Shown piece after piece: positions 4,953 to 25,260 of a stretch of DNA of 32,924 nt. The first letter of the stretch is position 1. Each line of letters opens with the position of its first letter. A program made the translations under genes and the position numbers. The notes under the pieces are model-generated. The model saw nothing but the letters and a program-made list of their open reading frames with translations. It was not told where the DNA came from and did not search any database. Location of the stretch: contig JAJPRE010000002.1 in the NCBI GenBank assembly GCA_023700245.1, positions 98,363 through 131,286 on the forward strand. The letters run 5' to 3'. Origin of the DNA: Candidatus Thalassarchaeaceae archaeon (GTDB lineage: Archaea; Thermoplasmatota; Poseidoniia; Poseidoniales; Thalassarchaeaceae).

Positions 4953-6227
4953 ATGGCACTTCTAGATGTTCTGATTATAGGCAATGGAGGTAGGGAACAT
5001 GCTATCGCCGTTGGCCTAAATAATAGCAAGTCAATAGATAATATTCATGTTGCCCCAGGTAATGTCGGAACCCATAAAATCGGCGTAAATCATGATATTG
5101 ACATATCAAAATCTGAAAATATTACTAACTTGGCTTCTAAATTAAATGTAGATTTAGTAATAATTGGTCCTGAGATGCCACTTGTGAATGGCATTGCAGA
5201 TGAGTTAAATAAAATCAATATTAATTGTTTTGGTCCAATTTCTAAATGGGCTAATTTAGAAGGTTCTAAAAAATATGCAAAAGAATTAATGAAATCACTT
5301 AATATTCCAACAGCCGAATATGTATTGATATCAGAAGTATCTAATAATCATGAAATTTTAGAATATTTTAATCCTCCATGGGTTATAAAAAGGGATGTCC
5401 TAGCGGGCGGAAAAGGCGTCAAAGTTACATCTGATAAGATTACTGCCATATCTTCTATAAATGATGCAATTTTATCCGATGGTTGTGTATTGGTTGAAAA
5501 CTTCCTCAAGGGTGAAGAAGCTTCTATTCTAGTTATGATGGATGAATCGGATTATGTTTGTCTACCAGCCAGTCAAGATCACAAACGACTATTGGATAAT
5601 GATGAAGGGCCAAATACTGGAGGTATGGGTGCCTATGCTCCTGCTCCAATAGTCACCCCTTCGATCTTACAGCGAGTGGAAGAAGAGATAATTGAGCCCA
5701 TGCATCACTTCTTAAGAAATCAAGAAAATCCGTACAGAGGCTGCCTCTATGTCGGTTTAATGATAGATGATGATGGTGCTCCGAATGTTGTTGAATTTAA
5801 TGTTAGGTTTGGTGATCCAGAAACTCAAGTTACTATTCCCCTAATATCTTCAGATTTGGGAGAATTATTTTATTCCGTATCATCTGGAAAATTATCAGAT
5901 CATAAAATTAAATTTCATAAATTAAGTTCTGCAACTGTTGTTTTAGCATCAAAAAATTATCCAGATTCTCCAATCATTGGCGATTTAATTTATGGCTATG
6001 ATGTAGTTATTGATGAGGGAGAAATTAATGCATTTATACACTATTCAGGAACTGCAAAAAATGAACAAGGATTGTATATTTCTTCAGGAGGCAGGGTCCT
6101 TTCTGCAACAGGTGTTGCACCTACCCTTAGGGATGCCGTGGAGGCTTCATATCAAATCATAAATAATATAACATTAAGTGGTTCGCATTTCCGCTCTGAC
6201 ATAGCATCAAGAGCATTCCGGAGATGA
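4953..6227 (+). CDS. purD: Phosphoribosylamine-glycine ligase (GAR synthetase)
   Basis: Catalyses ATP-dependent joining of glycine to 5-phosphoribosylamine, the second step of purine synthesis, in the cytosol. The 424-aa protein is the standard monofunctional length. The N-terminal domain opens with LIIGNGGREHAIA (residues 7-19). The ATP-grasp domain carries PPWVIKRDVLAGGKGVKV and VENFLKGEEASI, then ASQDHKRLLDNDEGPNTGGMGAY, a PurD signature. The metal-binding segment VVEFNVRFGDPETQ has the expected Glu281 and Asn283. The C-terminal domain includes LSSATVVLASKNYP and SSGGRVLSATGVAPTLRDAVEASY. It lies 40 bases after carS but appears to have its own promoter, so the pairing may not be a true operon. 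Confidence 0.95.
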   Translation: MALLDVLIIGNGGREHAIAVGLNNSKSIDNIHVAPGNVGTHKIGVNHDIDISKSENITNLASKLNVDLVIIGPEMPLVNGIADELNKININCFGPISKWANLEGSKKYAKELMKSLNIPTAEYVLISEVSNNHEILEYFNPPWVIKRDVLAGGKGVKVTSDKITAISSINDAILSDGCVLVENFLKGEEASILVMMDESDYVCLPASQDHKRLLDNDEGPNTGGMGAYAPAPIVTPSILQRVEEEIIEPMHHFLRNQENPYRGCLYVGLMIDDDGAPNVVEFNVRFGDPETQVTIPLISSDLGELFYSVSSGKLSDHKIKFHKLSSATVVLASKNYPDSPIIGDLIYGYDVVIDEGEINAFIHYSGTAKNEQGLYISSGGRVLSATGVAPTLRDAVEASYQIINNITLSGSHFRSDIASRAFRR

Positions 6228-6251: not shown

Positions 6252-6264
6252 TTAATTTATATTA
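6252..6264 (+). promoter_or_regulatory. TATA box for the aglB operon
   Basis: The run ttaatttatatta in the purD-aglB gap fits an archaeal TATA element. It would start transcription near 6285-6292 and leave a leader of about 50 bases. This is the only clear promoter seen before the three-gene surface block running to 21645. Confidence 0.4.
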
Positions 6265-6329
6265 CTCCACGAACCGTTAAAACAATCTGTCAATTCGCCG
6301 CGATGTTAAGGCTTGATGCTGTAACGATT

Positions 6330-6335
6330 GGTGAT
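6330..6335 (+). promoter_or_regulatory. Shine-Dalgarno site of aglB
   Basis: GGTGAT lies five bases before the ATG at 6341. It is complementary to the 3' end of archaeal 16S rRNA and supports this start codon. Confidence 0.6.
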
Positions 6336-6340
6336 TAAAT

Positions 6341-9300
6341 ATGAATGATAAACAACAGGCAACAGGAGGTAATTTTTCTTCAAAGGATATTACTTCGATT
6401 CCCGTAATAGTAACTACATTAATGGTACTTTATTTTGGAATAAGTTTTGCCGTTAATGGCGGAATAGGTAATGATGGATATGCGAAGATATTAATCTTGC
6501 CACTTGCCGCAGGTATGGCCGCCGCCATAGGTAGGATTAGTCCATTCTTACCGATGGAAAATTTTTCTAAATATAGGTCAATTTCTATTTCCTTTGGAAT
6601 AATATTAGTAGCATTTTTGCTAAATATTATTTCACCAAGTAATTTCAATAATATCTTCATTATAACATTTATATTCGTTGGTTTATCTTCAGTTGCGTTA
6701 TCTCAACTAAAACGATTCGAAGCCTCAAATATTTTGTTATCAATTGTAGTGGGATTCCATCTTGCAGTGTCTTTTGCATCTAATATTTTTACGGATGCAG
6801 GATTGGACATCAATTCTGAAAGATCTGCAATCGGAATAGCATTCCTGACATTTTGGATTGCTTCCATATCTATGGGGTTCACGCTTGCAATGTACCTAAG
6901 AGGAACATTTGATCACAAGGGCGAAGGCTCACTATTCTCCGAAATGCCAACATTTAATGAAAATAAATCTATTGTAATATTTTCCACTTTTATCTCCATA
7001 ATATATCTCATACCTCTGCTTCAAATTGAAAATAACCAATCTCTTGGAATAGGTTGGGCAATTTTTACAAACTTAATAATTATCTTTTATGCTTTTTGTT
7101 ATTCAGAAAGATGGAATGTTATTGGAGCAATTATTGCCATAAATTGGTTCATATATACATTAGGACATCTTCAAGAAATAGGTAATACGTTTTATCCTAA
7201 TATTTTTGAAGGAGACGACTTTTTGGGCGCCTTTTCTTGGTTTTTTATTACCTTTTGGTTAAATATCTTGGCAATAACATTAGCATCAAGGGGATACTTT
7301 GGCGATATAGCACCTATGCGTACTCATGGTAAATTCAGATTGTGGTGGAATTCTAATTTCTATAATATTTTGATTCCACTCTCATTGATTACAGCCCTTG
7401 CCGTAAGAATCATTTGGAATGTGATACCTGCAATGAATGCATCAGGGACTGGTGACTGGGATATGTCAGGAGGTTCTGATCCATGGTATATGAAGCGTGT
7501 AGTTGATTATATAGTGGCAAATAATAGTCATTTAATTTTTGATATGGATAGAGCTTATCCAATCGGTGCAATTAATCCAAGACCTCCGCTATTTACTTGG
7601 TCTCTCGCATTAGGAGGGATTGCACTATCTTGGATTTTAGAATCTGATAATACTGGAGAAGTAGTTTGGTGGAGCCTAGCTACAATGCCAGCAATTTATG
7701 GCGCCTTGGTTGTATTGCCTGTATCTGGAATAGCCAATAAGATTTATGGGAAAAAAGCTGCCATAATATCAGCATGGCTCATCGCTTTGATGCCGGGGCA
7801 CATCAGTCGATCTACATTCGGTATGGTTGATCACGACTCATTTGCAATACTATTACTATCTACGGCATTTTACTTTTGGATTGCTTCACTTTCTCATATG
7901 AGTCAAGAAAGATTCTTTCGTAAAACATCTGCAAATCCATTGTACTTATTAGCCGGAATTAGGGAATCTTGGATTAGAAATCCGAAAGTTATGGCAAATG
8001 CCACACTCTCAGGCATATCATTTGCAGTCATGGCTCTAGGGTGGAAAGGGTTTGTATATGGTCCTGCAATCATATTCCTAGTATTTTCTCTTCAATTATT
8101 ATTTAATTTGTTCCGTTCTAGAGATAGTATACAATTATGTTCTGCTAATTTCCAGATGCTTTTTACAACCTTCATAATATCTCTTCCGTTCTATGCTTGG
8201 CCAGGATTAAATTTAGTTACTGATCCAAATGGATTACAACCATTATTTTTTATTATTGGCTTTTCTATAATTCTTGGATGGGTAACATGTTCATTCAGGG
8301 ACAAACCATGGTTGTTAGTTCTCGGAGTTGGAACTGCTCTTGTATCATTTATACTTGGCATATTATTCATACTTCAAGAAATCAATGCTTATGCAGGTTG
8401 GGATATCCTCTTCACCGGAGGATTCTACTTTGATAAGAATAAAATATTTGGTACAATTGGAGAAGCACAAGCGCCAAGTAGGGGAGTATTATTCGCATCT
8501 TACGGCCCTATTGTTGCATTAATAGCCCTATCTTTCGCATTCGTATTTCTGTGGAGAGGAGCAAGAAATAATCAAGGAGCATATACTCTACTTGGTTCTT
8601 GGGGAATAATTTCTACATATATGGCTTGGTCTGCAGGTAGATTTATCATAAATGCAACGCCAATAATGGCAATATTGGGAGGGATAGGTATTGCTATGTT
8701 ATGGAAATCTGCAAATTTTTCACAATTTACCAAAGAATGGAGAAACTCAGGAATTGGAACTCCTAGGGCTAGATTCCGTTCATTATGGCCTGCCACTAAA
8801 AGTCATGTTGGTGTTCCTATAATGGCAATTATATTCATGCTAGTATTTTCACAACATGTAACCTATGGAATAGACTCTGGAATTCCTCGACAATCAGAAT
8901 ATGCTTCTGATGTCGACCAAACAATATATGATTTAACTCCAGACATTCTAAAGACAAAATTAATTGGGAAGTTTTCTATATTGGATAGCTCGGATTATGA
9001 TCCAAGCTCTTCATCAGGTTTGCAATACATAGGTACATTCGGGCCAAGTTTCAATTCATATGGCTGGAATGATGCATATTCATGGCTAGAACAACAAGAT
9101 TCAGAAATTAGTTTTTCTGAAAGGCCAGCCTTTGTTTCTTGGTGGGATTATGGTTTCAGTGCTTTAGCACATGGTCAACACCCTACCGTTGCAGATAACT
9201 TCCAATCAGGAATACCTCATAGTGGAGGAATGCTATTATCACAAGGTCAAGAAGATACAATTGCGTTATTCTTAACTACTCTTACTCAAGGAGATATGAA

Positions 9301-12300
9301 ATATAATGGTGGCCTTAGTGAAGAATTACTAAATTCATTATCCAATAACATGAACGATGCCCAATTAGGTGAATTTATCAAAATAATGACTAATTCTAAA
9401 TCTTCATTTGTAATAGAACACGCAATGCAAGTAAGAGCTGCTAGTAATGGAGTAGAATTATTAAGTGGATTCCCACTTAATTCAAATGGCGTACCTTCAA
9501 TGGAAATTGAGTGGATCGTAGTCTCCGAAAATGGAGACACTACGTCGCTTGGTGGAAATCAATCAGCGGCAGTTTCATTATACAACCAAACAAGAGGATC
9601 TGCTTCAGTATCTTCAACATTAAGCGATTGGGATGAAGAACTATCTCCGTCTTATTACGATATTGGCGGATATAGGTACACCACGGATTTAATAGATGAT
9701 TTCGAATCTGCTTCTACTGGAATTCATAGAACTAATTCAAAATTGGCTATTTCTAGAGCCTTTTTTACTTCAAGTTTTGACATTGAACAATTGGTAGATA
9801 TGTATCACGGCATCTCTAATTCAATAACCTATTCAGTTCAAGATTACGAAGGGGCTTTAGGTGAAACTGTTGATAGAAATAATGAGATTAGATATTTCGC
9901 CGTAGATAATCGTTTGTACCCTCTTGGCGGTTCGTATTACGATGATTATTCATATCATTATGGTCAAACTACTGGTATATTCCATGCTCCAACCGGATTA
10001 TCTGGTCTAGATATGGATGACTATATTTCGACCCTTTATCAAACTCAAAGAGGTGATGGCGCAATAACTCCTCTTACAGCCGAACAGTTCAATGATGCAT
10101 ATATGCGAGATTTGGAACTCCAACAAAGTGGTGCAATTTCTGATGCTAGCCAAGTCATAAGGTATACTGATATTGACTATCAACATACTGCAAATTTCTT
10201 TGAAACAATGGTTGCTAGAACCTATGTTGGCTATGGGACCTCCACTCTAGGCCTACAAGGAGATGCTGAAACTCCTTCAGTTTGGTTTAATCCTCAGACA
10301 ACCGGTTTAACAGGTGCCCCAGGATCGTATTTACAGAATGCTTGGGCCTTACCGGGTGCAATGATGAATCATATGGTAATTTCAAATTGGTATGACAGTG
10401 ACTATGACGACGATGGTTTAGATAACCTAGTGGATGATAGGAAATGTGATGAGTTAATAGAAAGTTCAACAATACAAAATATATCGATTGGAGATACATC
10501 CATATTGTTGTTAGATGGGTCACTTATGCCATTAAGTGGAAGTGCATTTATTTATCATCCGACTGGAAATATTTCTATCAAGTGGACAGATAAAAATGAT
10601 AATACGTTATCTGGAGTTACTGGAGTTACAAAAGAAATAGTTTCTGATTCTTTACTATCTCATAACCCATCTGCACTTTGCGGAAGTATATATGATTCAA
10701 ATCGTTTCGTAAAAATTCTGAAATACTACAGTGGTGCAACTTTAGAGGGAACGGTATCACTAGATAGTTCTGGAATAGTCCCAAATGCTCGTATTTTGGT
10801 AGAAAGGGATGCATTCAGCGGAGATGAAATTGAAAATGCAGATGGAAGTGTTATTGATAGAGATGACAGGACATATTGGATACCAATAGGTTATACAGAT
10901 TCTAATGAAGATGGTGAATTTTCATTAACTGTTCCAGCAGGTAAGATTCGCGTATCGGCATATATTGGAGATATAGATTTAGATTCAGCCAGAGCGTCAA
11001 TCATGACTTCTGATGTTGGCTCTACTATGTTTGAATTAACTATTGAAGAAAATAGTCAAAGAATGACAAACCCAATTACTGGAATACTTGGAAATGTTGC
11101 TGGGGCAACTTGGCTAGCAGAATCTATTGTCAATATTTCAGGTACGGATGGACACAGTAACGGAAATGAAATACTACAAGTCAACATAGATGTAGATTCA
11201 TCTTCTGCATCTGGCGTCCTAACTTGGTCTGGTAGTGGAGATTTTAACGGCAATCCAATTAAGGATGCTCAAATAGTTCTTTCACCATCTTCTGAAAGTG
11301 TAATCCTTGCTCCCTACTTACTAGATACTTCTAATGGATCCGTCGAAGGTACCGAACTTCAATTCCAAGGTTTAGGTAATGTTTCATTTACTGGAGAAGG
11401 TAGCGTCCAATCGGATAGTATTTTATCAGTTTCAAATTTTACTGGAAACCATACTCAAACTGTGTATAATAATCACAGCATAATTGGAGATGGATTATTT
11501 GTTGGCCAAGGACAACTATCTAATGGTTTAATAAATGATGATATTACAATTGAAGATTGCCAAGATAACATATTACCAAATGGTAATATTTTATGTCATC
11601 TTGGTGATGGCAAATATTTGTTAAATGGTTCTATAAATGCTTCAGGCAAGTTTACTTCAGATGGCATTTCTACATTCACCAAATTCCTAAATCAAGCTAC
11701 TCTAATAGGATCAGGTATTTTTACAGTAGATACTAGCCTATCATTGGATTCATATGGAATAATTGATGGAATTGGTTCTTTTTTGGGAACTGGGATATTT
11801 AGTGGCCCAATGGTACAGCCTGGAACATTCCAAGTAGATGATGCAATACCTGGTACATATGATGTTTCTGTTATATTCGAGGATGGCTCTCATGTCAACT
11901 TGAGTACTCAATTCATCATACCTCTTATGAAATCTCCAATGCCTACTCCAATAAGTGTGTTTGGAGGATCAATATCTGGGAATTTAATTGATTCTGCTGG
12001 TGCGATAATTAATTCCTCAATATCTTTAATTCATTCTGAAGATGCCAATAATGGGGAAATCCCAACGGGAGATTGTTTAATTGTAAATGTTGCACCATGT
12101 TTGATTTATCCAGATGATTCTGGCAAGATCACATTTGGGCCTATAATTCCAGGATCATATGTTGCAGAAATAGATTCAGATAATGATGGAATGCCTGAAA
12201 TTTCAGTAGTTTATGATTTTAGCTCTGATGTATCATTCGATGCAATATTCCCATCTCCAATACCTGAAACATCTGATTTACGTTTTAAATTATTAAATAA

Positions 12301-15300
12301 TAATATATCAATTGAAAATCTTAATGTTTCATTTTATTCAGAAAATGATGAGACGAATATTATTAATGCATTATTTAGTTCCGATTTAAGTGAATATATT
12401 ATAGAATTAACTCCAGGTACTTGGATATTAAGTCATAATTTGGATGAAAATAATCAAATTTGGAAGATTATAGAGATAGGTTCGGAAGATTTAGTTGCAG
12501 AATATAATTTTGAAGTGAGTAAAATTATATCGGGAAATGCCTATCTTTCAACAACGTCACTTAATAATGAATCAATAATCTCAGTATTGCCTAATCAACC
12601 TATAAAATTATACTGGGGTGACGGATTATCAACAATAGTAAATTCTGACTCATCTGGATATTTCGAAGTTTCATTACCTGTAAATTCAATCGTAGATGCA
12701 TCTTTAATTTATACTTTAGATACTGCATACTCCTCGAATATTAGGTTTATAGTAAATACTGATATTGATGATAATCAATCATTTAATTTAACGGCGAATA
12801 GAGCAATTATTGTTGATGGTACATTAAGTATAGATATATTGGGTAATTATTATACTAATTCTCTGATTGACTGGGAAATTATGAATGTCATTGCGCGTCA
12901 AACACCAATTGATGAATCTCAACCCAATTGGAGGGCTGCTGTGGATCAAGGTGGTAACTTTAGAATGTTTATTAAAGAAGGTAATTGGCAATTTTCAATT
13001 GAATCCAACCTTAATATTTCCATTGATGAAGAACTCAATTCTTTTTATATTAATGAATCATCCAAAAATGTTGATTTATTAATTAACTCTGAAATGAGTT
13101 TTGTAATTATTGATTTCTTTATCGACCACAGTCAAGATGGCAACATGACTAACGGGACATTGGTGAATTATCCCTTTGCAATTAAATCTACAAATCCATT
13201 TATACCTACATATGAATTTAGTTTATCTAGTGATGAATGGATTTCAACAGGCAGGGCCGAAATTTCTTTATCGCCAGGCGTATATAATATAGCAATAGAT
13301 AGGCCAAATCCATCTTCAGGCGATGAATTCGATACATTGTATAATTCAAATGATATTATTGAAATAGGTTTAATTTCAAATTCTATTTCAATTCCAATAG
13401 CATTTGAACCTAACTGGTTGACTAATATTACTATTAAGAATGAATCTGGTGGCCTATTAGCAAATGAATTAGTTAAATTAAAGGACGTTGATTCTGGATG
13501 GTTGCTTTCTTATATGACTAATTCTAATGGTTCAATTTCAACTTATATCCCAGAAGGTCAATGGTTAGTAACTGTTGATCCAACAGAAACAAATTCTGGT
13601 GTTTTCGAAAGTATTCGAGAATTACTTAATGTATCAAATATTACTGCTTCGCAAGAATCAATACTTAGTACATCTGAAGTGGCTTTTACTACAATCACAT
13701 TAACAGATGGTGTAATGCCATTATCTAATGTGCAATTAAAATTAACAAATGATATTTTAGGCAGCTTTAACTCTCCCTATTCTGACGATCTTGGAAGAAT
13801 TGAATTAAAAATTGAGCCAGGTATGTGGGATGTTGAATTGAATTATACCGATACTAATGAAGTAATGTGGATTATTGATTCTACTCCCATATCTGCTAGC
13901 GAACTGACTCCAGGAATAAATCAAGATATTGACTTAAATGTAAGCAAATATGTCAGTCTCAAAGGAACTGTGTATTGGGATTTAAATGATAACGATTCTC
14001 CTAACATTGGAGAAGGTATGTTCAATACTTCTTTGATATTAATATCTGATGACCAGAATATCTCTCTAAAAACGGATGAATCTGGACAATGGTCGACCTA
14101 TCTTCCATATGGAAGTAATTGGACGATTTATTCTGAATTAGATGGTTTCGATAATGAAGAGGTAAATGTTACTTTGGTTGACGATTCAAATGTCAAAAAT
14201 ATCGAAATATCTGCTGGAATAGTGGAAATTACTGGTCAAATTTCTTATATTGATGCCGATCAATTTCAAGATATATCAGATAATGTGGAAATGATTATAA
14301 TGCCTAAATCAGGAATTATAAGGGATAGAGTTATTCCAAACAAAATACTTGATGATCAAATGTTGTGGAATGGTGAATGGAGCGCTATGGTTGAACCTGG
14401 TGACTGGATAGTTTGGATAACGGCCGAATCTTCATCTAACAATGTTCCATATTTAGTTTCAATGAATTTCATAGATGTAGGAATTGGTATAAATAATGTA
14501 CAATCGGATCTTTCAATCGGTGGTAAATTAATTTTAGATACTAAATGGTTAGACTATAATGGTACTTCGAATAACTTATTGGATTTAGAATCTCATAATA
14601 TTGTTCTTAGCAAATCCGGCTCTAAATTGAGTTGGGACGAGCAATTAGGAAATGATGGAATATTGGAATTGATATTACCAGCAGGGCAAATTGATACCTA
14701 TAGTAGCTTTAATTTCTCTCAAAAAGATAGATTAATGGATTATTCAGGTGGCAAAGGCGCCACTATCAGATCTTCACAAACCACTCCTTTGATAACTCTC
14801 GAAATTACTGCCGTAAAAAATCAAGATATTTCAATATCTAATTCAGGTCTTGGTTATGCAGATTTATCTTTGTCCGTTTCAAATTGTATAGTTAATTGTA
14901 CATATAATCCAGTTGAATTCAACTTCGATATAGAATATTTGGGGCACCAATCTTACGATAATTATACTATTAATGGCGTAGTTCCGGGTGCTGACGGTTC
15001 TCTGTGGGAGGTTGAATTTAAAGATACATTCGGTAATTGGACAAATACTAAATCAATTGATATGGGATTAGAGAATTCAATGATGAGTATATTACAGGCT
15101 AGAATTATTCCAGCTAATGTAGATGAAGCACACCATTTATTAAATGGCCATCAAATTAAAATTATATTTTCTACAATGGATGGTTATGTCAAAGAACATG
15201 TTATAATTGTAAACGTACCTCAGAATCATCAATTTAGTTCTGATGGATTTTTGGATGATGTTTATGGCATAGTAGAAAACGAGTTACTAAGCATCGATAT

Positions 15301-16039
15301 TGAATTCTCAAATTATGGTAATGGTGATGACATATTTAGGTTTGATTATAGCATAGAATCAATAGATGATTGGACTATATCGGGAATACAGTCTCAACCT
15401 TCATCTCCATTCTCTAATGGATCTACTGCTGTTTCTATACTTCCTCCAACTAATCTTACTGATGCCGTTTACACACTTCAATTACTCGTTACTGGTGAAA
15501 ACAACGATACTTACGGGCCGTATACTACTACAATTATGAAATCAAGTCCAATATTATCAATTTCTGATGACAATAGTATCATGCTGTTAAGTGGAGATAC
15601 CGGACCCCTAGCGGGAGAAATAGCCACGTATTTGGTCGTAGTTAAGAACTCAGGTTTGATAGATGCATCTTCTGTTGAATTAAATGGAGTACTTTGTTCT
15701 GATATAGGTTGTAATAATTTCCTCGGAGTTAATGGTTCAGATATTTCCAATGTTGCCGCAAAAGGAAGCTCTACCTTTTATATCAACATGGATTTTGCAA
15801 ATATTGAAGTTGAGAAGTATTTCGTCGAGTTTTACTTTTCCGATATTCCTAGAGTTGAAACAACGTCATGTAGTGATTTAAAATTTGATACTACTGAATG
15901 TGTTAAGGAAGCTCAGGTACTCACCCCAGATGAAGATTCTGATAATCCATTGTTAGGATATATTATTGGCTTACTTCTTTTAATAACTCTATTGTATATC
16001 ATCAGTAAAGCTACAAGAAAGCCAGGTGCACCTTTCTAA
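6341..16039 (+). CDS. aglB: Giant STT3/AglB oligosaccharyltransferase with repeat-rich surface tail
   Basis: Transfers a lipid-linked glycan to Asn of N-x-S/T sequons on the outer face of the membrane. Residues 1-840 are a multi-helix membrane domain with the STT3 acidic motifs: GGSDPWYMKR (Asp380) in the first external loop and GMVDHDSFA (Asp497, Asp499). The soluble catalytic part carries WWDYG at 934-938. Known archaeal AglBs usually end at about 600-1,000 residues. Here a Ca-loop-like segment, DSDYDDDGLDNLVDD (about 1352-1366), is followed by some 1,865 extra residues: a GxG-rich strand region (about 1627-1826), at least 11 Ig/carboxypeptidase-regulatory-like units (about 1790-2800), CARDB-like domains (about 2840-3190), and a membrane helix (about 3204-3222) with a basic tail. 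The frame is unbroken. The tail holds many sequons, so self-glycosylation is plausible. The enzyme call is firm; the role of the tail is unknown. Confidence 0.92.
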   Translation: MNDKQQATGGNFSSKDITSIPVIVTTLMVLYFGISFAVNGGIGNDGYAKILILPLAAGMAAAIGRISPFLPMENFSKYRSISISFGIILVAFLLNIISPSNFNNIFIITFIFVGLSSVALSQLKRFEASNILLSIVVGFHLAVSFASNIFTDAGLDINSERSAIGIAFLTFWIASISMGFTLAMYLRGTFDHKGEGSLFSEMPTFNENKSIVIFSTFISIIYLIPLLQIENNQSLGIGWAIFTNLIIIFYAFCYSERWNVIGAIIAINWFIYTLGHLQEIGNTFYPNIFEGDDFLGAFSWFFITFWLNILAITLASRGYFGDIAPMRTHGKFRLWWNSNFYNILIPLSLITALAVRIIWNVIPAMNASGTGDWDMSGGSDPWYMKRVVDYIVANNSHLIFDMDRAYPIGAINPRPPLFTWSLALGGIALSWILESDNTGEVVWWSLATMPAIYGALVVLPVSGIANKIYGKKAAIISAWLIALMPGHISRSTFGMVDHDSFAILLLSTAFYFWIASLSHMSQERFFRKTSANPLYLLAGIRESWIRNPKVMANATLSGISFAVMALGWKGFVYGPAIIFLVFSLQLLFNLFRSRDSIQLCSANFQMLFTTFIISLPFYAWPGLNLVTDPNGLQPLFFIIGFSIILGWVTCSFRDKPWLLVLGVGTALVSFILGILFILQEINAYAGWDILFTGGFYFDKNKIFGTIGEAQAPSRGVLFASYGPIVALIALSFAFVFLWRGARNNQGAYTLLGSWGIISTYMAWSAGRFIINATPIMAILGGIGIAMLWKSANFSQFTKEWRNSGIGTPRARFRSLWPATKSHVGVPIMAIIFMLVFSQHVTYGIDSGIPRQSEYASDVDQTIYDLTPDILKTKLIGKFSILDSSDYDPSSSSGLQYIGTFGPSFNSYGWNDAYSWLEQQDSEISFSERPAFVSWWDYGFSALAHGQHPTVADNFQSGIPHSGGMLLSQGQEDTIALFLTTLTQGDMKYNGGLSEELLNSLSNNMNDAQLGEFIKIMTNSKSSFVIEHAMQVRAASNGVELLSGFPLNSNGVPSMEIEWIVVSENGDTTSLGGNQSAAVSLYNQTRGSASVSSTLSDWDEELSPSYYDIGGYRYTTDLIDDFESASTGIHRTNSKLAISRAFFTSSFDIEQLVDMYHGISNSITYSVQDYEGALGETVDRNNEIRYFAVDNRLYPLGGSYYDDYSYHYGQTTGIFHAPTGLSGLDMDDYISTLYQTQRGDGAITPLTAEQFNDAYMRDLELQQSGAISDASQVIRYTDIDYQHTANFFETMVARTYVGYGTSTLGLQGDAETPSVWFNPQTTGLTGAPGSYLQNAWALPGAMMNHMVISNWYDSDYDDDGLDNLVDDRKCDELIESSTIQNISIGDTSILLLDGSLMPLSGSAFIYHPTGNISIKWTDKNDNTLSGVTGVTKEIVSDSLLSHNPSALCGSIYDSNRFVKILKYYSGATLEGTVSLDSSGIVPNARILVERDAFSGDEIENADGSVIDRDDRTYWIPIGYTDSNEDGEFSLTVPAGKIRVSAYIGDIDLDSARASIMTSDVGSTMFELTIEENSQRMTNPITGILGNVAGATWLAESIVNISGTDGHSNGNEILQVNIDVDSSSASGVLTWSGSGDFNGNPIKDAQIVLSPSSESVILAPYLLDTSNGSVEGTELQFQGLGNVSFTGEGSVQSDSILSVSNFTGNHTQTVYNNHSIIGDGLFVGQGQLSNGLINDDITIEDCQDNILPNGNILCHLGDGKYLLNGSINASGKFTSDGISTFTKFLNQATLIGSGIFTVDTSLSLDSYGIIDGIGSFLGTGIFSGPMVQPGTFQVDDAIPGTYDVSVIFEDGSHVNLSTQFIIPLMKSPMPTPISVFGGSISGNLIDSAGAIINSSISLIHSEDANNGEIPTGDCLIVNVAPCLIYPDDSGKITFGPIIPGSYVAEIDSDNDGMPEISVVYDFSSDVSFDAIFPSPIPETSDLRFKLLNNNISIENLNVSFYSENDETNIINALFSSDLSEYIIELTPGTWILSHNLDENNQIWKIIEIGSEDLVAEYNFEVSKIISGNAYLSTTSLNNESIISVLPNQPIKLYWGDGLSTIVNSDSSGYFEVSLPVNSIVDASLIYTLDTAYSSNIRFIVNTDIDDNQSFNLTANRAIIVDGTLSIDILGNYYTNSLIDWEIMNVIARQTPIDESQPNWRAAVDQGGNFRMFIKEGNWQFSIESNLNISIDEELNSFYINESSKNVDLLINSEMSFVIIDFFIDHSQDGNMTNGTLVNYPFAIKSTNPFIPTYEFSLSSDEWISTGRAEISLSPGVYNIAIDRPNPSSGDEFDTLYNSNDIIEIGLISNSISIPIAFEPNWLTNITIKNESGGLLANELVKLKDVDSGWLLSYMTNSNGSISTYIPEGQWLVTVDPTETNSGVFESIRELLNVSNITASQESILSTSEVAFTTITLTDGVMPLSNVQLKLTNDILGSFNSPYSDDLGRIELKIEPGMWDVELNYTDTNEVMWIIDSTPISASELTPGINQDIDLNVSKYVSLKGTVYWDLNDNDSPNIGEGMFNTSLILISDDQNISLKTDESGQWSTYLPYGSNWTIYSELDGFDNEEVNVTLVDDSNVKNIEISAGIVEITGQISYIDADQFQDISDNVEMIIMPKSGIIRDRVIPNKILDDQMLWNGEWSAMVEPGDWIVWITAESSSNNVPYLVSMNFIDVGIGINNVQSDLSIGGKLILDTKWLDYNGTSNNLLDLESHNIVLSKSGSKLSWDEQLGNDGILELILPAGQIDTYSSFNFSQKDRLMDYSGGKGATIRSSQTTPLITLEITAVKNQDISISNSGLGYADLSLSVSNCIVNCTYNPVEFNFDIEYLGHQSYDNYTINGVVPGADGSLWEVEFKDTFGNWTNTKSIDMGLENSMMSILQARIIPANVDEAHHLLNGHQIKIIFSTMDGYVKEHVIIVNVPQNHQFSSDGFLDDVYGIVENELLSIDIEFSNYGNGDDIFRFDYSIESIDDWTISGIQSQPSSPFSNGSTAVSILPPTNLTDAVYTLQLLVTGENNDTYGPYTTTIMKSSPILSISDDNSIMLLSGDTGPLAGEIATYLVVVKNSGLIDASSVELNGVLCSDIGCNNFLGVNGSDISNVAAKGSSTFYINMDFANIEVEKYFVEFYFSDIPRVETTSCSDLKFDTTECVKEAQVLTPDEDSDNPLLGYIIGLLLLITLLYIISKATRKPGAPF
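11220..11815 (+). repeat. GxG-rich short-strand repeat region in the AglB tail
   Basis: The translated region (about residues 1627-1826) repeats a short motif of hydrophobic-x-G-x-G-x-F/L-x-G type: WSGSGDFNG, FTGEGSVQS, IIGDGLFVGQGQL, LIGSGIFTV and IDGIGSFLGTGIFSG. This pattern suggests a small beta-solenoid inserted between an upstream Ig-like unit (its PAGKIRV turn at 10934-10954) and the downstream array. The units are diverged, so this is a protein-level and not a DNA-level repeat. Confidence 0.5.
11830..14720 (+). repeat. Tandem array of ~95-residue Ig-like units in the AglB tail
   Basis: A strand signature (small/acidic)-P-G-x-W/Y-x-V/I recurs with near-constant spacing. The G codon of the turn falls at 11852, 12152, 12416, 12680 (degenerate, LPVNSIVDASL), 12980, 13277, 13556, 13820, 14111, 14399 and 14684, so the steps are 264-300 bases. 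Examples are IPGTYDVSV, LTPGTWILS, KEGNWQFSI, PEGQWLVTV, EPGMWDVEL and EPGDWIVWI. Before most of them stands a D/S-x-x-G-x-(F/I/W/L) segment such as SSGYFEVSLP or ESGQWSTYLP. This is typical of carboxypeptidase-regulatory-like and SdrD_B-like sandwich domains. VYWDLNDNDSPNIGEG near 13972 is a particularly SdrD_B-like opening. Confidence 0.7.
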
Positions 16040-16084
16040 TTGAATACAAATGTTATTATTGTATTGCTATTTTAGTAAGTTTGA

Positions 16085-16092
16085 AGGGGATC
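16085..16092 (+). promoter_or_regulatory. Shine-Dalgarno site deciding the TTG start of the protease
   Basis: AGGGGATC lies four bases before TTG 16097. It is the strongest ribosome-binding match near this gene and supports the unusual TTG start. Confidence 0.55.
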
Positions 16093-16096
16093 GAAA

Positions 16097-17332
16097 TTGC
16101 AGCCTTTAATTAATTTGGACCTTTTGCCGGAACCAGATGACCCTAATATTTTGACTGCTATTGATAATAATGCAATTGGTTACCCAGGCAAAGCGTATGG
16201 CATTTCTGATAATGACTCAAAAAAATTAAGGAGAAATTTTTCACCATTGAAGAAAATACTTTGGCCATGGGGCGCTCTTATGTTTTCGTTATTTGTTACA
16301 TTTTTGATTTTAAGTTGGCCCATAATTAGTCCTTTGATATCTTCTTCATTACCTGATTCTGAGTGGGCATTTGATGAAACAGGAATAAGGGAAATGCAGG
16401 AAAACGGATACTATGGTTCTGGAGTAAAGGTATGTATGGTTGATACTGGTATAGATATTTCCCATCCGGATTTTTATAATGTTAAATTAGTTGGTTTTAG
16501 GGACTTTTATGGTAATTCTCATTCTGATGTGAGAGATATAGGAACTAATTCTCATGGTACATTGATGGCAGGTTTACTTGTTGCCAATGGGACTTTAATT
16601 GGAGCTGCGCCAGAAGTTTCTCTATCTATCGCGATATCTTTGGGGCCAACCGGACAATCTGGCCAAGAGAGTATGGTTTCACAGGCTATAAGATGGTGCA
16701 GAATTACTCAAAAGGCAGATATCATTAGCTTAAGTCTTGGTGCAAATCCTGGGGAAAGAATGGATGATACATCAGATACAGTTTTAGCAGTCAAAGAAGC
16801 AATAAATGAAGGTATTTTTGTAGTAGCTGCTGCAGGTAATACTGGATTAGATGAATCAGTTTATGATATTTCAACGCCTGCAAATGTAGAGGGAGTAATA
16901 TCAGTAGCAGCATCAAATAAAAAAGGCTTAATCTGGGGAAACAGTGCTATTGGTAATGAAATAGATCCATATACTGATTATGAAAGAGCATTTCCTAATC
17001 AAAAGCCAGAGATTTCAGCCCCTGGAGTAAGGCTATTATCAACATACTCTGCTGAATCTTCAGATTCACTTTATGCATATTCTTCGGGCACTAGTGACTC
17101 TACAGTATTAGTAACTGGGGCACTAGCATTACTATTGGAGTTATACGGAGACGCTATTGCTGGTGAAGACAACGTAATTAGCTATGATGAATTGATGCAG
17201 GTAAAGAAGGCACTTGCAAAATCTACAGGATCAAATATTCAAGGTTCAGATCATGACTTAAAAAGAGGATATGGGTTGTTAAATGTTAACTTATGGGCAC
17301 AAGAAATAAAAAATGAATTTGATTTTAATTAA
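16097..17332 (+). CDS. Membrane-anchored subtilisin-like (S8) serine protease
   Basis: A 411-aa subtilase. Residues 1-53 are a charged, probably cytosolic N-terminus. One membrane helix spans about 54-80 (WPWGALMFSLFVTFLILSW), placing the protease domain (about 90-400) outside the cell. The catalytic triad is visible: Asp116 in VCMVDTGIDISHPDF, His153 in NSHGTLMAG, and Ser333 in SSGTSDSTVLVTGALALL. The oxyanion Asn248 is in AAAGNTG. The serine segment departs from the usual GTSMAAPHVAG, lacking the Pro-His pair, though GTS and the following helix remain. No inhibitor_I9-type propeptide is apparent. It sits 57 bases after aglB and 5 bases before the next gene's stretch, so it is very likely co-transcribed. 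Cleavage of nearby surface proteins is an inference. Confidence 0.88.
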   Translation: MQPLINLDLLPEPDDPNILTAIDNNAIGYPGKAYGISDNDSKKLRRNFSPLKKILWPWGALMFSLFVTFLILSWPIISPLISSSLPDSEWAFDETGIREMQENGYYGSGVKVCMVDTGIDISHPDFYNVKLVGFRDFYGNSHSDVRDIGTNSHGTLMAGLLVANGTLIGAAPEVSLSIAISLGPTGQSGQESMVSQAIRWCRITQKADIISLSLGANPGERMDDTSDTVLAVKEAINEGIFVVAAAGNTGLDESVYDISTPANVEGVISVAASNKKGLIWGNSAIGNEIDPYTDYERAFPNQKPEISAPGVRLLSTYSAESSDSLYAYSSGTSDSTVLVTGALALLLELYGDAIAGEDNVISYDELMQVKKALAKSTGSNIQGSDHDLKRGYGLLNVNLWAQEIKNEFDFN

Positions 17333-17388
17333 AATTTTTGACACTCTCAGACCCTATTGTTAAATTAACTAGTCACGCCCGAAGTTGT

Positions 17389-20300
17389 ATGGGCAACAAT
17401 CCTAAAGCACGTAGTACTTTTCTAGTTTTCATAATGTTTTCTAGTATTTTAATTTCTTTAATAGGCCCAGCTTCATTCGTATCTGCAAATAATGAGACTG
17501 ATTCTGGAACCATTACTGGAACTGAAATATGGTCTGGGATACATGAATTAACAGGAGATGTGACTATTGCAACTGGTGCCCAATTAATTATTAACCCAGC
17601 TACTACTATTTCAATGCCTAATGGTACTCATATTGATGTTAGAGGAAGTATTTGTGCAGGGATGATTTCATGTGGCGCAGATTCTAATGCCAACCCTAGC
17701 CAAAAAATTACGTTTCAATGGAGTGATCCTGAGGTTTACAATGCTGGATATTGGGAAAATAAGAATGCAACTGGCGATTGCGTTGGCTTAACGCAAAATA
17801 ATCAAGAAATATCGGTAGTTGATCCCTCGTGTTACGAAGGTATTTTAATTCGGAGCTCGATTGATCTTTCCCTTACGGGTATGAGGCACGTCGTATTTGA
17901 TGGTGCATACGGATTACCTCATTTCATATCTTCAGTTAACGAGTGGAGATATGGTGCTCTGGTTATAGATGGCGCAAGTCCAACTTTCAAAAACTTAGAT
18001 TTTACAGATATAAATACTTCCAGTATCATTACCACCAACTTGGCACAACCAATTCTAATTGATGGTTCATTTACGGTTGGTAATGATGAAGAAAGTAGCG
18101 TCGGTGGTTCAGCATTACAAATTTACTCATCAGGAACCTCAGTTGCCCCATTTACATTAAATAATCCATTTTTTAAAGATGGAACTGAAAAGGGATGCCA
18201 AAATAATGACGGAGGCCGCTCTGCATTATGGGCACAACAATCTTTCGTAAATATTGATGATGCTAATATCGGTTTAGGAGATTTTGGAGTCACATTTAGG
18301 GATACGGCAGGAAAAATTACTAATTCCACAATTAATGTAAATTGCGTTGGAATCTCAATCCAGGGCAAGAGGACAGTAAGCGGAAACTCATTCGGTTTGG
18401 ATATTTATAATAATGATATAATTACTTCTGAAGGCACAGGTATATTTTCTTCAAACAGTGCTTTGGTAGATATTCGAAATAATCAGGTCAGCGGCGCATC
18501 TGGTGGATCTGGAATTGCAGTTTCATCTAGCGTAGCTAAAATTCACAACAATGACATAGGACCTATTGGAGGGTTTAATGGTCTTTGGCTTTATGGTTCG
18601 TTTGAAGTAGAGGCAGAGAATAATACTATCTCTGAAACAAATAAAGAACCTATTATCGCTGGTGAATATTATTATTCTGATACCCAAATTTCAAATTTAT
18701 ATCTTGTAAATAATGAAATATCTACCGATGGAACAGGTGCGTGTTCAAGCACGAAATGGTGGGGCGGAGAATTCCAATGTCCTGCTATTATGGTTTTCAG
18801 ATCCGGAGCTACAATACATGATAATAATATTGCAGCAGGAGATGCAAATGCTATTATGGCAAAAGGTGCTTTATTAGATGTTCAGAGAAATACATTCGAT
18901 GGTGCACTTACGGGTGCATTAATTACCAACTATGATGATGGATATGTTGATAGTCAACAATATGGTTCATTAGCGTTTTTCTCCCAAAATACTTGGTCTA
19001 ATGTTCAAATGACTTACAACGTTACAAAAAGTTCTGTAACGGTTCAGTCTGAAAATATTCCATCGGCTCCTACTGGGGAATACCCTGTAAGGTTATCTTG
19101 GCCAGATCAAGAAGCTTGGCCTGCAAATGGTTTTCAAACTCGAATAGAAGTCCCACCAGTAAAAAATTGCCCAGCTTGTGACGATATAATTCCTCGTAAT
19201 TTCCCACTTGCCCTAAATATGGATAATAATTCTACGGTTTTTACTTTTTCTAATTTATCAAATTTAGATACAAATAATATTTTTATTGAATCTCAACCAA
19301 CTCATTATGCCGTACAAGTGAGTAGGGCAGAGTTAGTAAGATTCCAGGCATTAATCAATGGAGCGGCCGTTTCAGATGCTTTAGTATTAATAGAAGATGC
19401 ATTAGGCAACGACCTTTACACGATATTAACTAAATTAGATGGTTATACTCCATGGTTTTCTCTTCCTTCTAATTTCCATTTAGACTTTAGAGGATTGGGC
19501 GGAGGAGATAATCCCGATGGTTTTGCCGATGATCAATATGAAGACTCATGTTCTGATGGAATAGATAATGATGGTGACCTTACAATCGATAATGATGATT
19601 CAGATTGTGATAATTCACAGGGTACTCGCGAATTATCAAGATATTTTTATACAATTTATCGCTTTGGATTTGGATATGCTACAGGAGAATTTACACTTGA
19701 TGAATCAACTTATCAAGATTATATAGAACTTGTTAATTTGGCACCTTCGGTTGAAATAACTCAGTCTAATGGGCACTCATACAGGTCAATTGTGAATGTC
19801 ACAGGTAGCGCATATGATGGGCAACTTGCAAGTAGTTATTCTACAAATGAATTGGCTCAGTGGGATCAACAAGGGTATGTTCACCGCATTGAAGTAAAAG
19901 ACCCATTTACAAACGAATGGCAAAATTCTGGTATGGCAATTGACGATAGTGGGGCAAATAATGGAATTGTAACAAGATTCAACCATCCTTTTAGCGCATG
20001 GTATTTTGAAATTGATATGTCCAATAGAGAGGAAGGAGATTATAGTTTTGAATTTAGGTCATATGATGGAACTGATTACAGCGAGATAATTACTAGAATT
20101 TTTAAAATTAATACTGAAGCTCCAATTATTTCAGTATCAACTCCAGCATCATTATCCAGTCATTCTGATGGTACTATTCACTTCGAAGGTGATTCTTCTG
20201 ATCCATATGGCTGTCCCTTGGAATGTAATGTAGATATAACTTCAATATATATGCTGATAGAAGGACCAAATTTTCAAGTCACAACTCCAATAGAGGTAAA

Positions 20301-21645
20301 TGATGGAGGTACTTGGGATTGGGATTGGGATTTTAGCGGACAACCAAGAGTTTCTGCATCCTTTACGTTCACAGTTTGGGCATCTGATTCTGATTTTTGC
20401 AATGGGATAATTGATGTTTGTTCTCCAATTATTCTATCATTGACTGTAGATAATTCTAATCTTGCACCAAGCATTAACATAAATGAACCGTCAGATGGCA
20501 TGAGGCTATCAGTTTCTGAAAATACTTTGGTAAGTGGTGTTGCGAGAGATTTCGATGGAGATGTTTCTAGGGTTGATATGGAAATAAAAGATATAGAAAA
20601 TGAATATATAGTAATTCATTCTCATTCAGTTTCAGATTTCTCAGAAAACGGGGAGTGGAATTATTCATGGGACTCATCCAATTTAAATCATGATTCTCCA
20701 TACCTCTTAAGATTTAGGTCGTATGATGGATACGATTATAGTGGATGGTCTGAATTACAAATTATCGCAGATAATCCTCCGGATGCTAATAATAATCAGC
20801 CTACTTTTACTTCAGAAGATTGGATAGATAGCACAACATTGTATTGCGATTTAAATTCAAAATCATCTAATAGATGTACAACCGCAACAATAAATTTACT
20901 CCAGTTCTTTGATGATGTAGATTCTGATTTAGAATATATATCGGTATATAATAGCATAGATGAATATGATGATAATTATGGTATTGTAATCAAAGTAAAT
21001 AGCAACGGAATTGCAACATATAATCCAACTGATATGAATTTTTATGATACTGATATTTCTACATGGTCCTTGACAAATATTATTTTCGTCGCAACTGATC
21101 AATTTGGATCAAAGATAAATTCAAATCCTACTTCATTTATTGTCGAACCTGTAGAATTTATAATTACTACTTTGGATAATGATATTGTAGATGATGATGG
21201 AGTTATGCTTTATTCTGGTTCTGGACTCCCAGGGCAAACAATATCTGTAAGCATAGGTGGCAATACAGTAAATACCACTGTAGTATCTGAAGATTCATCC
21301 TGGATACTTGGTGTCCCTGCTTCCAGAATCCCCGGTACATCGGCCACTCCTGAATTCTCAATGGGGGGACAAGATTCCATTCCTGTTGATATTATTTACA
21401 AAGGTGAACAAGATGAAAATGGATTTCCTATTGGATACATAATTATTACAATAATTATAATAATGGCACTTGCATTATTGGCATACTTCTTCATAGAAAT
21501 TGAAGTTTTGGATGAAGACAGCGAATTAATTGAAAATAATTTAGAATCCGGAAAAGAATTGCAGAAACACGAAGATCATCCTGGTTGGCTTTGGAATACA
21601 GTTGATGAAGAATGGATAGAAGATCCTAATCATATTTCAGAATGA
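17389..21645 (+). CDS. Large beta-helix surface protein with cytosolic W-rich tail
   Basis: An exported protein of about 1,418 aa, function unknown. I chose ATG 17389 over the in-frame TTG 17338 because it gives a compact signal peptide (short basic start, then FLVFIMFSSILISLIGP, ending near SANNET); neither has a clear Shine-Dalgarno. Residues about 35-550 contain right-handed beta-helix repeats rich in NxI/V turns (IYNNDIITSEGTGIFSSNSA, IRNNQVSGASGGSGI, IHNNDIGPIGG). A Cys-bracketed Ca-loop, CSDGIDNDGDLTIDNDDSDC (about 721-740), resembles MopE-type metal-binding motifs. Three or so Ig/cadherin-like domains follow (APSVEITQSNG, APIISVSTPAS, APSININEPSDG). A membrane helix (about 1349-1371) and a 47-residue acidic cytosolic tail with HPGWLWNTVDEEW end it. 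Last gene of the aglB-protease unit and a likely glycosylation or protease substrate. Confidence 0.8.
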   Translation: MGNNPKARSTFLVFIMFSSILISLIGPASFVSANNETDSGTITGTEIWSGIHELTGDVTIATGAQLIINPATTISMPNGTHIDVRGSICAGMISCGADSNANPSQKITFQWSDPEVYNAGYWENKNATGDCVGLTQNNQEISVVDPSCYEGILIRSSIDLSLTGMRHVVFDGAYGLPHFISSVNEWRYGALVIDGASPTFKNLDFTDINTSSIITTNLAQPILIDGSFTVGNDEESSVGGSALQIYSSGTSVAPFTLNNPFFKDGTEKGCQNNDGGRSALWAQQSFVNIDDANIGLGDFGVTFRDTAGKITNSTINVNCVGISIQGKRTVSGNSFGLDIYNNDIITSEGTGIFSSNSALVDIRNNQVSGASGGSGIAVSSSVAKIHNNDIGPIGGFNGLWLYGSFEVEAENNTISETNKEPIIAGEYYYSDTQISNLYLVNNEISTDGTGACSSTKWWGGEFQCPAIMVFRSGATIHDNNIAAGDANAIMAKGALLDVQRNTFDGALTGALITNYDDGYVDSQQYGSLAFFSQNTWSNVQMTYNVTKSSVTVQSENIPSAPTGEYPVRLSWPDQEAWPANGFQTRIEVPPVKNCPACDDIIPRNFPLALNMDNNSTVFTFSNLSNLDTNNIFIESQPTHYAVQVSRAELVRFQALINGAAVSDALVLIEDALGNDLYTILTKLDGYTPWFSLPSNFHLDFRGLGGGDNPDGFADDQYEDSCSDGIDNDGDLTIDNDDSDCDNSQGTRELSRYFYTIYRFGFGYATGEFTLDESTYQDYIELVNLAPSVEITQSNGHSYRSIVNVTGSAYDGQLASSYSTNELAQWDQQGYVHRIEVKDPFTNEWQNSGMAIDDSGANNGIVTRFNHPFSAWYFEIDMSNREEGDYSFEFRSYDGTDYSEIITRIFKINTEAPIISVSTPASLSSHSDGTIHFEGDSSDPYGCPLECNVDITSIYMLIEGPNFQVTTPIEVNDGGTWDWDWDFSGQPRVSASFTFTVWASDSDFCNGIIDVCSPIILSLTVDNSNLAPSININEPSDGMRLSVSENTLVSGVARDFDGDVSRVDMEIKDIENEYIVIHSHSVSDFSENGEWNYSWDSSNLNHDSPYLLRFRSYDGYDYSGWSELQIIADNPPDANNNQPTFTSEDWIDSTTLYCDLNSKSSNRCTTATINLLQFFDDVDSDLEYISVYNSIDEYDDNYGIVIKVNSNGIATYNPTDMNFYDTDISTWSLTNIIFVATDQFGSKINSNPTSFIVEPVEFIITTLDNDIVDDDGVMLYSGSGLPGQTISVSIGGNTVNTTVVSEDSSWILGVPASRIPGTSATPEFSMGGQDSIPVDIIYKGEQDENGFPIGYIIITIIIIMALALLAYFFIEIEVLDEDSELIENNLESGKELQKHEDHPGWLWNTVDEEWIEDPNHISE

Positions 21646-25079: not shown

Positions 25080-25260
25080 GCCTATAATGTTCCGTGTGCA
25101 TAATAGTCTATCAATAAATACTATTAAATTAAATAATAACTACGATTTTAGAATAATTTTTCACAACTCATCGTTTATACTAATTTCAGTATGTCTGAAC
25201 TACGCTCCATCAGTATCATAAATTAGTTATCACCCCTTTAAATATAAAATAGTGGTAACC

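Follow-up and report, generated by a model that had tools for sequence, protein, structure and literature searches.

The stretch of DNA analysed here, referred to as the window, comprises 32,924 nucleotides (nt) of contig JAJPRE010000002.1 (positions 98,363 to 131,286 of the forward strand) from a Candidatus Thalassarchaeaceae archaeon, the genome of which (GCA_023700245.1) amounts to 1.47 Mb in 50 contigs. It harbours three tightly packed genes on the same strand, encoding a giant AglB oligosaccharyltransferase (OST), an S8 subtilase and a beta-helix surface protein designated BH (Table 1). An earlier examination of the letters alone, here called the sequence-only reading, had reported these three codirectional open reading frames (ORFs), and their positions were borne out, as were the gaps between them, being 57 bases between aglB and the S8 gene and either 5 bases (BH from TTG 17338) or 56 bases (BH from ATG 17389) between the S8 gene and BH. 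All three products are membrane-anchored with their bulk predicted to lie outside, in agreement with the earlier proposal that they act at the cell surface; as the host is an archaeon, the face in question belongs to the cytoplasmic membrane (its outer side) and not, as had been stated, to an outer membrane. We propose, with a probability of about 0.5, that this is a conserved surface locus of Candidatus Poseidoniales made up of two transcription units, in which AglB would serve both as OST and as surface glycoprotein by the mechanism outlined below.

Table 1. Features of the aglB locus; positions are those of the window, and aa stands for amino acids, TM for transmembrane and AF2 for AlphaFold2.
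Feature	Position	Strand	Basis or remark
purD (phosphoribosylamine-glycine ligase)	4953..6227	+	Pfam GARS_A/N/C; fixed neighbour upstream of aglB
TATA-like element upstream of aglB (window cgaaccGTTAAAAC, relatives ACGGTTAAAAC)	6272..6284	+	conserved upstream of aglB in relatives
aglB, giant OST, 3232 aa	6341..16039	+	Pfam STT3 68.1 bits, cut-off 24.5
AglB N-terminal extension, ~10 predicted TM helices	6341..7330	+	AF2 helices at aa 19-316; present in Poseidoniales, absent from family-f3 AglBs
AglB OST part: STT3 TM domain and C-terminal core, motifs SDPWY, DHD, TIGE, WWDYG	7331..10210	+	fold and motifs
AglB stalk: beta-sandwich domains in tandem, first CarboxypepD_reg/CnaB-like, then Ig-like (NPCBM_assoc/CARDB); rich in N-x-S/T	10718..15949	+	domain matches, AF2, sequon test
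AglB C-terminal TM helix, then short basic tail	15950..16018	+	hydropathy scan
S8 subtilase, 411 aa, TTG start	16097..17332	+	Peptidase_S8 140.1 bits, cut-off 21.8
S8 features: N-in/C-out membrane anchor at ~aa 59-80, triad D116/H153/S333, cytosolic LxPEPxDxRIL peptide before the TM helix	16097..17332	+	alignment, hydropathy
TATA-like element of the BH gene, TGTTAAATTAAC	17358..17369	+	conserved in relatives
BH, beta-helix/Ig surface protein	17389..21645 (ATG) or from 17338 (TTG)	+	Beta_helix 27.3 bits, cut-off 25.9; Big_7 30.2, cut-off 24.1
BH cytosolic tail motif HPGWLWNTVDEEWIEDPNH, tryptophan-rich	21577..21633	+	GWx(1,2)[WY] in the last 90 aa of 89/91 BH frames
wHTH + AAA_16/STAND + TPR protein	21747..24275	+	Pfam; candidate regulator, fixed neighbour downstream of BH

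Relatives of the locus were drawn from two families of the Poseidoniales, which we infer to be Thalassarchaeaceae (f1) and Poseidoniaceae (f2), and from families outside these, among them f3, by our guess Marine Group III. Two locus sets were employed, the first made up of 60 f1 and f2 loci, none longer than 20 kb (L032-L091), and the second of 80 named loci (L212-L291); the sets have genomes in common and are therefore not independent, and neither are the counts given below, as the sequences are related.

The designation of the first product as a glycosyltransferase in the sequence-only reading was correct with regard to the enzyme, which possesses the STT3 domain and OST motifs, and understated a protein more than half of which is a surface stalk: an N-terminal section of ~330 aa, predicted to contain 10 TM helices, is followed by the OST part, a stalk of ~1,900 aa and a C-terminal TM helix. 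The OST motifs D376, SDPWY381, D499-D501, T707-E710 and WWDYG936 (in frame numbering, which is 2 above the protein's own) are invariant in 29/29 sequences, and the OST part of the AF2 model (mean pLDDT 71.5) superimposes on Archaeoglobus fulgidus AglB (3wak) over 488 residues with a VIA-align Z of 25.0 and an rmsd of 4.6 A, the relatives in the PDB being 5gmy/3waj (E 9e-13). A section of PMC3703281 describes a DK/MI motif on a kinked helix as a feature of AglB/STT3 OSTs. The score against the family of archaeosortase A-associated OSTs (TIGR04154) fell below its cut-off (161.8 bits vs 450), and each of the 23 Poseidoniales genomes with an STT3 match had just one such match, with no spare OST seen. 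Of the 56 uncut aglB frames in the first locus set, 55 measure 3124-3335 aa and the other one (L080) is split; in the second set the frames of L242, L244 and L274 are interrupted. The stalk has diverged further than the OST, identity to the window protein across the alignment members being 41-81% in the OST part and 25-64% in the C-terminal part, and a stretch between OST and stalk (~aa 1375-1450) is absent from most relatives. AglB frames of family f3 begin 42-79 aa upstream of the site equivalent to residue 340 of the window protein, and the N-terminal TM module gave no fold match among the matches listed, a comparison in which this module was barely tested.

The stalk that follows the enzyme is built of beta-sandwich domains, with CarboxypepD_reg matched in 31/33 and 28/33 members. 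Its first half (aa 1270-2440) was modelled by AF2 with a mean pLDDT of 81.3, and the 50 fold matches listed for this model include CnaB/pilin chains (Z 8-9), 3hn5 (Z 11.1), the Sulfolobus acidocaldarius SlaB chain 8qox_B (Z 8.1) and SdrD-type chains; as modelled, the stalk presents prealbumin-like domains in tandem in the manner of CnaB and pilin stalks. A weak Pfam match to NOMO_3rd occurred in 1/33 members (E 0.0046), no NOMO chain was among the 50 fold matches listed and the literature search yielded no NOMO lead.

Since partners of an AglB encoded at the same locus should carry N-glycosylation sequons (N-x-S/T), these were counted in 74 AglB stalks, prefiltered to frames of 3050-3400 aa, and in 91 BH frames with a likewise preset length filter, and compared with expectations from simple letter shuffles which, here as in the promoter counts below, are not dinucleotide-preserving. 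The stalks contained 3031 sequons vs 1475 after shuffling, corresponding to a 2.06-fold excess (2.51-fold for N-x-T alone), with a mean of 41 per stalk (range 21-58, window 42), and the control patterns S/T-x-N, D-x-S/T and N-P-S/T gave ratios of 1.00, 1.03 and 0.57, respectively. One third of the sequons in the stalk share their alignment column (5204/15793 vs 345 expected by density), and when ORFs of 250 aa or more were ranked by sequon excess on each of three contigs, AglB came 2nd of 54, 4th of 189 and 1st of 170. BH had been named as the likely substrate of AglB, yet its 91 frames hold 1257 N-x-S/T vs 1385 expected (0.91-fold; 0.62-fold for the BH of the window), and only when N-x-T is taken separately is there an excess of 1.33-fold (T-x-N 1.06-fold), N-x-S standing at 0.59-fold; for comparison, the cytosolic neighbours PurD and wHTH/TPR have ratios of 0.71 and 0.59. 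The sequon-rich product of the locus is the AglB stalk and not BH, and BH as chief AglB substrate was rejected on these counts, the N-x-T excess being noted.

The S8 protease has the makings of an active enzyme, with D116, H153, S333 and the oxyanion residue N248 invariant in 18/18 sequences and with basic residues on the N-terminal, cytosolic side of its TM anchor. Upstream of the anchor lies a conserved cytosolic L-x-PEP-x-D-x-R-I-L peptide (window 16097-16200). Pfam reports only Peptidase_S8 in this protein and no I9 propeptide, a kind of domain that can be missed, and the model of the type VII mycosins scored 100.2 with a cut-off of 278.75. BH comprises a signal sequence, a right-handed beta-helix, Ig domains, a C-terminal TM helix and a cytosolic tail, and a pattern related to that of its tail was found in three contigs in BH proteins only, save for one internal occurrence within an ORF of 499 aa. 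The cytosolic motifs of S8 and BH might dock with partners.

Beyond the Poseidoniales, STT3 was detected in 96/116 Thermoplasmatota genomes; the matches outside Poseidoniia come from 70 genomes, of which ~30, counted by eye, encode AglB frames of at least 1800 aa. The complete genome G318 encodes an AglB of 2079 aa. Profiles of seven f3 AglBs and nine from other families align with the Poseidoniales AglB along both OST and stalk (hhalign probability 100), and the stalk sequon ratios are 1.02-2.57 in f3 and 1.73-3.92 in the nine others. The C-terminal TM helix and tail are visible in 17/20 AglB frames of other families, the exceptions being L168, L169 and L171. No description of a giant AglB was found in literature on Marine Group II or Thermoplasmatota, a search outside which most subscription papers lay.

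A single clear promoter had been proposed for the three genes, a claim that the TATA-like signals do not support, although transcription may read through from the S8 gene into BH. The TATA-like pattern RTTAWA occurs upstream of aglB in 51/68 loci vs 22.3 after shuffling and within 90 nt of the BH start in 77/99 loci vs 19.8, and no excess was observed in the AglB-S8 gap (17/95 vs 16.2) or in the BH-wHTH gap (13/92 vs 23.0); the upstream regions compared were not of equal length among the four genes, and the BH start was set by rule as the nearest ATG before the signal sequence. Because TATA-like elements precede aglB and BH and none precedes the S8 or the wHTH gene, the simplest reading of these signals is that aglB-S8 and BH-wHTH/TPR would each be cotranscribed as a unit. 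ATG 17389 is the better BH start as compared to TTG 17338, since the longer reading would have the conserved element (~17358-17369) inside it, ~20-31 bases 5′ of the ATG. The promoter proposed near 6252 (TTTATATTA) is not kept in the relatives listed, GTTAAAAC at ~6275 being kept instead, and a sigma-70 scan was set aside (95 hits vs 80.3 expected) as the host is an archaeon. Two further signals were observed. A conserved aglB leader, spanning ~30 nt 5′ to 90 nt 3′ of the frame start (for example in L213, L231 and L066), contains a short hairpin GAGCCT-N-AGGCT, a pattern present in 42/67 loci vs 0.3 shuffled and degenerate in the window (~6296-6325). The S8-BH gaps of f2 loci (L065-L091) contain TGATAY repeats, 75 in 25 gaps vs 4.5 shuffled, which may represent an operator. 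With regard to expression, a passage of PMC9723583 places an oligosaccharyltransferase among the genes of higher abundance in O1-active Marine Group II metatranscriptomes.

S8 relatives are present at E 1e-10 in 226/243 genomes of the class and in all 222 of f1 and f2, as compared to weak matches in 4/21 f3 genomes (E 1e-11 to 1e-14) and none in the other 17. Gene order was scored only where the contig reaches, with at least 500 nt upstream required for AglB-S8 in the second set, and the counts include L057, L071, L242, L244 and L274, which were found by a second search with nearer queries. AglB lies immediately 5′ of S8 in 60/60 and 76/76 loci, in both Poseidoniales families, and BH immediately 3′ of S8 in 60/60 and 77/77, which answers the question, raised with the original proposal, of whether the trio occurs in this genome only: its order is found throughout Poseidoniales. 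Downstream of BH, the wHTH/TPR gene comes next in 58/58 and 63/64 loci, the single exception containing runs of N, and PurD is directly 5′ of aglB in 55/56 loci of the first set, in which alone this was assessed as second-set loci end too near the aglB start; the exception is a locus with a fragmented aglB. Contigs of f1 and f2 share a colinear block of ~30 kb that spans Orf563, CarS, PurD, AglB, S8, BH, wHTH/TPR, MBL, a TSP3 protein and three small genes, up to at least a 174-aa gene, with CarS on the opposite strand in the f2 contig and with some genes that have no surface role. As PurD and wHTH/TPR are equally fixed within this block, conservation specific to the trio is too narrow a description; the trio is genuine and old, yet part of a larger fixed block and not, as the sequence-only reading would have it, a unit of its own. 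Outside f1 and f2, tblastn detected neither S8 nor BH near AglB in any of 20 loci (7 from f3, 13 from other families), one of which (L164) matched wHTH/TPR weakly and in part (40 bits), and BH and wHTH/TPR each went undetected in 21/21 f3 genomes with positive controls of 7/7 for each. In two distant families (L161 and L170) PurD was observed near AglB on the opposite strand, and the PurD-AglB neighbourhood may therefore predate Poseidoniales.

These observations bear on the alternative that the locus is an ancient conserved neighbourhood with no shared pathway, in which a ~30-kb block has stayed unbroken in slow-rearranging genomes and the surface proteins function independently. The colinear genes with no surface role, the promoter element of BH itself and the lack of S8 and BH as AglB neighbours in the 20 non-Poseidoniales loci are all consistent with it; against this, AglB-S8-BH show no insertion and no flip in either locus set, whereas CarS switches strand in f2 loci, the AglB-S8 gap is devoid of a promoter element and few conserved runs exist elsewhere on the compared contigs, though these may cover different parts of the genome. 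We regard this alternative as possible but doubtful.

According to the mechanism that we favour, AglB would transfer glycan to exported proteins, its own stalk included, and may be its own main substrate. The stalk would leave the membrane, bear ~40 sequons and return to the C-terminal TM anchor, so forming, when covered with glycan, an arch or spacer above the enzyme by analogy with pilin or SlaB-like stalks. S8, presumably cotranscribed with aglB, would be an active subtilase, anchored in the membrane and facing the same side, that processes or removes one of the surface proteins encoded at the locus. BH, expressed from its own promoter, would be held in the membrane as a surface protein with a conserved tail in the cytosol, and the wHTH/TPR ATPase probably regulates it; these proteins may also be in physical contact. 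Several points weigh against this proposal. Glycosylation and cleavage are both inferred; the 74 stalk frames had been length-filtered in advance; the excess in the window's own stalk is just 1.42-fold, in an AT-rich genome; and 3/7 family-f3 AglBs have stalks that are not enriched (1.02-1.17-fold). Moreover, sequon-rich proteins exist elsewhere, such as a 2980-aa protein with 87 sequons, and the stalk therefore need not be the main substrate, while outside Poseidoniales no S8 or BH lies beside AglB, so that the stalk does not depend on either.

A bolder form, in which the OST carries its own main substrate, glycosylating the stalk fused to it, and in Poseidoniales the cotranscribed S8 then cuts the stalk free, the stalk's own TM helix holding the mature glycoprotein, would render AglB a polyprotein of enzyme and coat, and is unlikely. 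The pathway of the sequence-only reading, whereby BH is glycosylated by AglB, cut by S8 and displayed, draws on the shared strand, tight gaps and universal order, on the surface nature of all three proteins and on the modest N-x-T excess of BH; with total BH sequons at or below chance and a promoter element belonging to BH, such a sequence of glycosylation, cleavage and display is unproven and decidedly improbable. That S8 matures AglB itself by a cut between OST and stalk, leaving the stalk membrane-held by its own TM as a free-standing glycoprotein, is suggested by the resemblance of aglB-S8 to one unit, by the TM of the stalk and by the stretch at ~aa 1375-1450 missing in most relatives, but is the least credible proposal, as stalk and C-terminal TM also occur in other families with no adjacent S8, and no cut site was identified.

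What is new here is a known enzyme, AglB, in a giant, stalk-bearing form. Should the enzyme domain glycosylate the stalk fused to it, the OST would be catalyst and structural surface glycoprotein at once; no other OST is known to be both. The locus also provides a concrete candidate for how the cell surface of abundant uncultured marine archaea is organised, and the idea of self-glycosylation is testable in cultured relatives with a long AglB.

Further surface proteins are encoded in the vicinity. A 1906-aa TSP3-repeat surface protein (window 25252-30972) has a colinear f2 counterpart of 1901 aa that is 42-43% identical. The above-mentioned 2980-aa protein, encoded ~3.8 kb upstream of the window (G000:C6:85649-94591), has a TSP3-like start and the top sequon excess of its contig (43.7 sequons expected), which makes it a candidate major surface glycoprotein; a 2979-aa counterpart is located 9 ORFs 5′ of aglB in G165. 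No Rfam family was found within the window.

With respect to characterised systems, AglB-Long of A. fulgidus (3waj/3wak/5gmy/7e9s) shares the STT3 domain, the catalytic motifs and the fold over model residues 336-1188, and 2/33 stalk members match the AglB_L1 peripheral domain; however, its solved chain has 875 aa as compared to 3232 aa here, where ~330 aa of TM helices stand in front and stalk and TM helix behind. Other giant AglBs (f3, f6, f7, f8, f11, f24, f27, f30 and others) possess a homologous post-OST stalk, a C-terminal TM helix and mostly a sequon excess, but are 1861-2744 aa long, are devoid of the N-terminal TM module where checked and have no S8 or BH neighbour. Subtilases such as the intracellular subtilisins, Thermococcus subtilisin and the type VII mycosins share the Peptidase_S8 domain and triad with the protease of this locus, which differs by its N-terminal TM anchor, its conserved cytosolic PEP peptide and the absence of a recognised propeptide domain. 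Gram-positive pilins and MSCRAMMs (CnaB, SdrD B, SpaA) and SlaB likewise present tandem prealbumin-like beta-sandwich domains, a likeness at the level of fold only given ~10% identity, and, unlike the AglB stalk, these are not fused to an enzyme.

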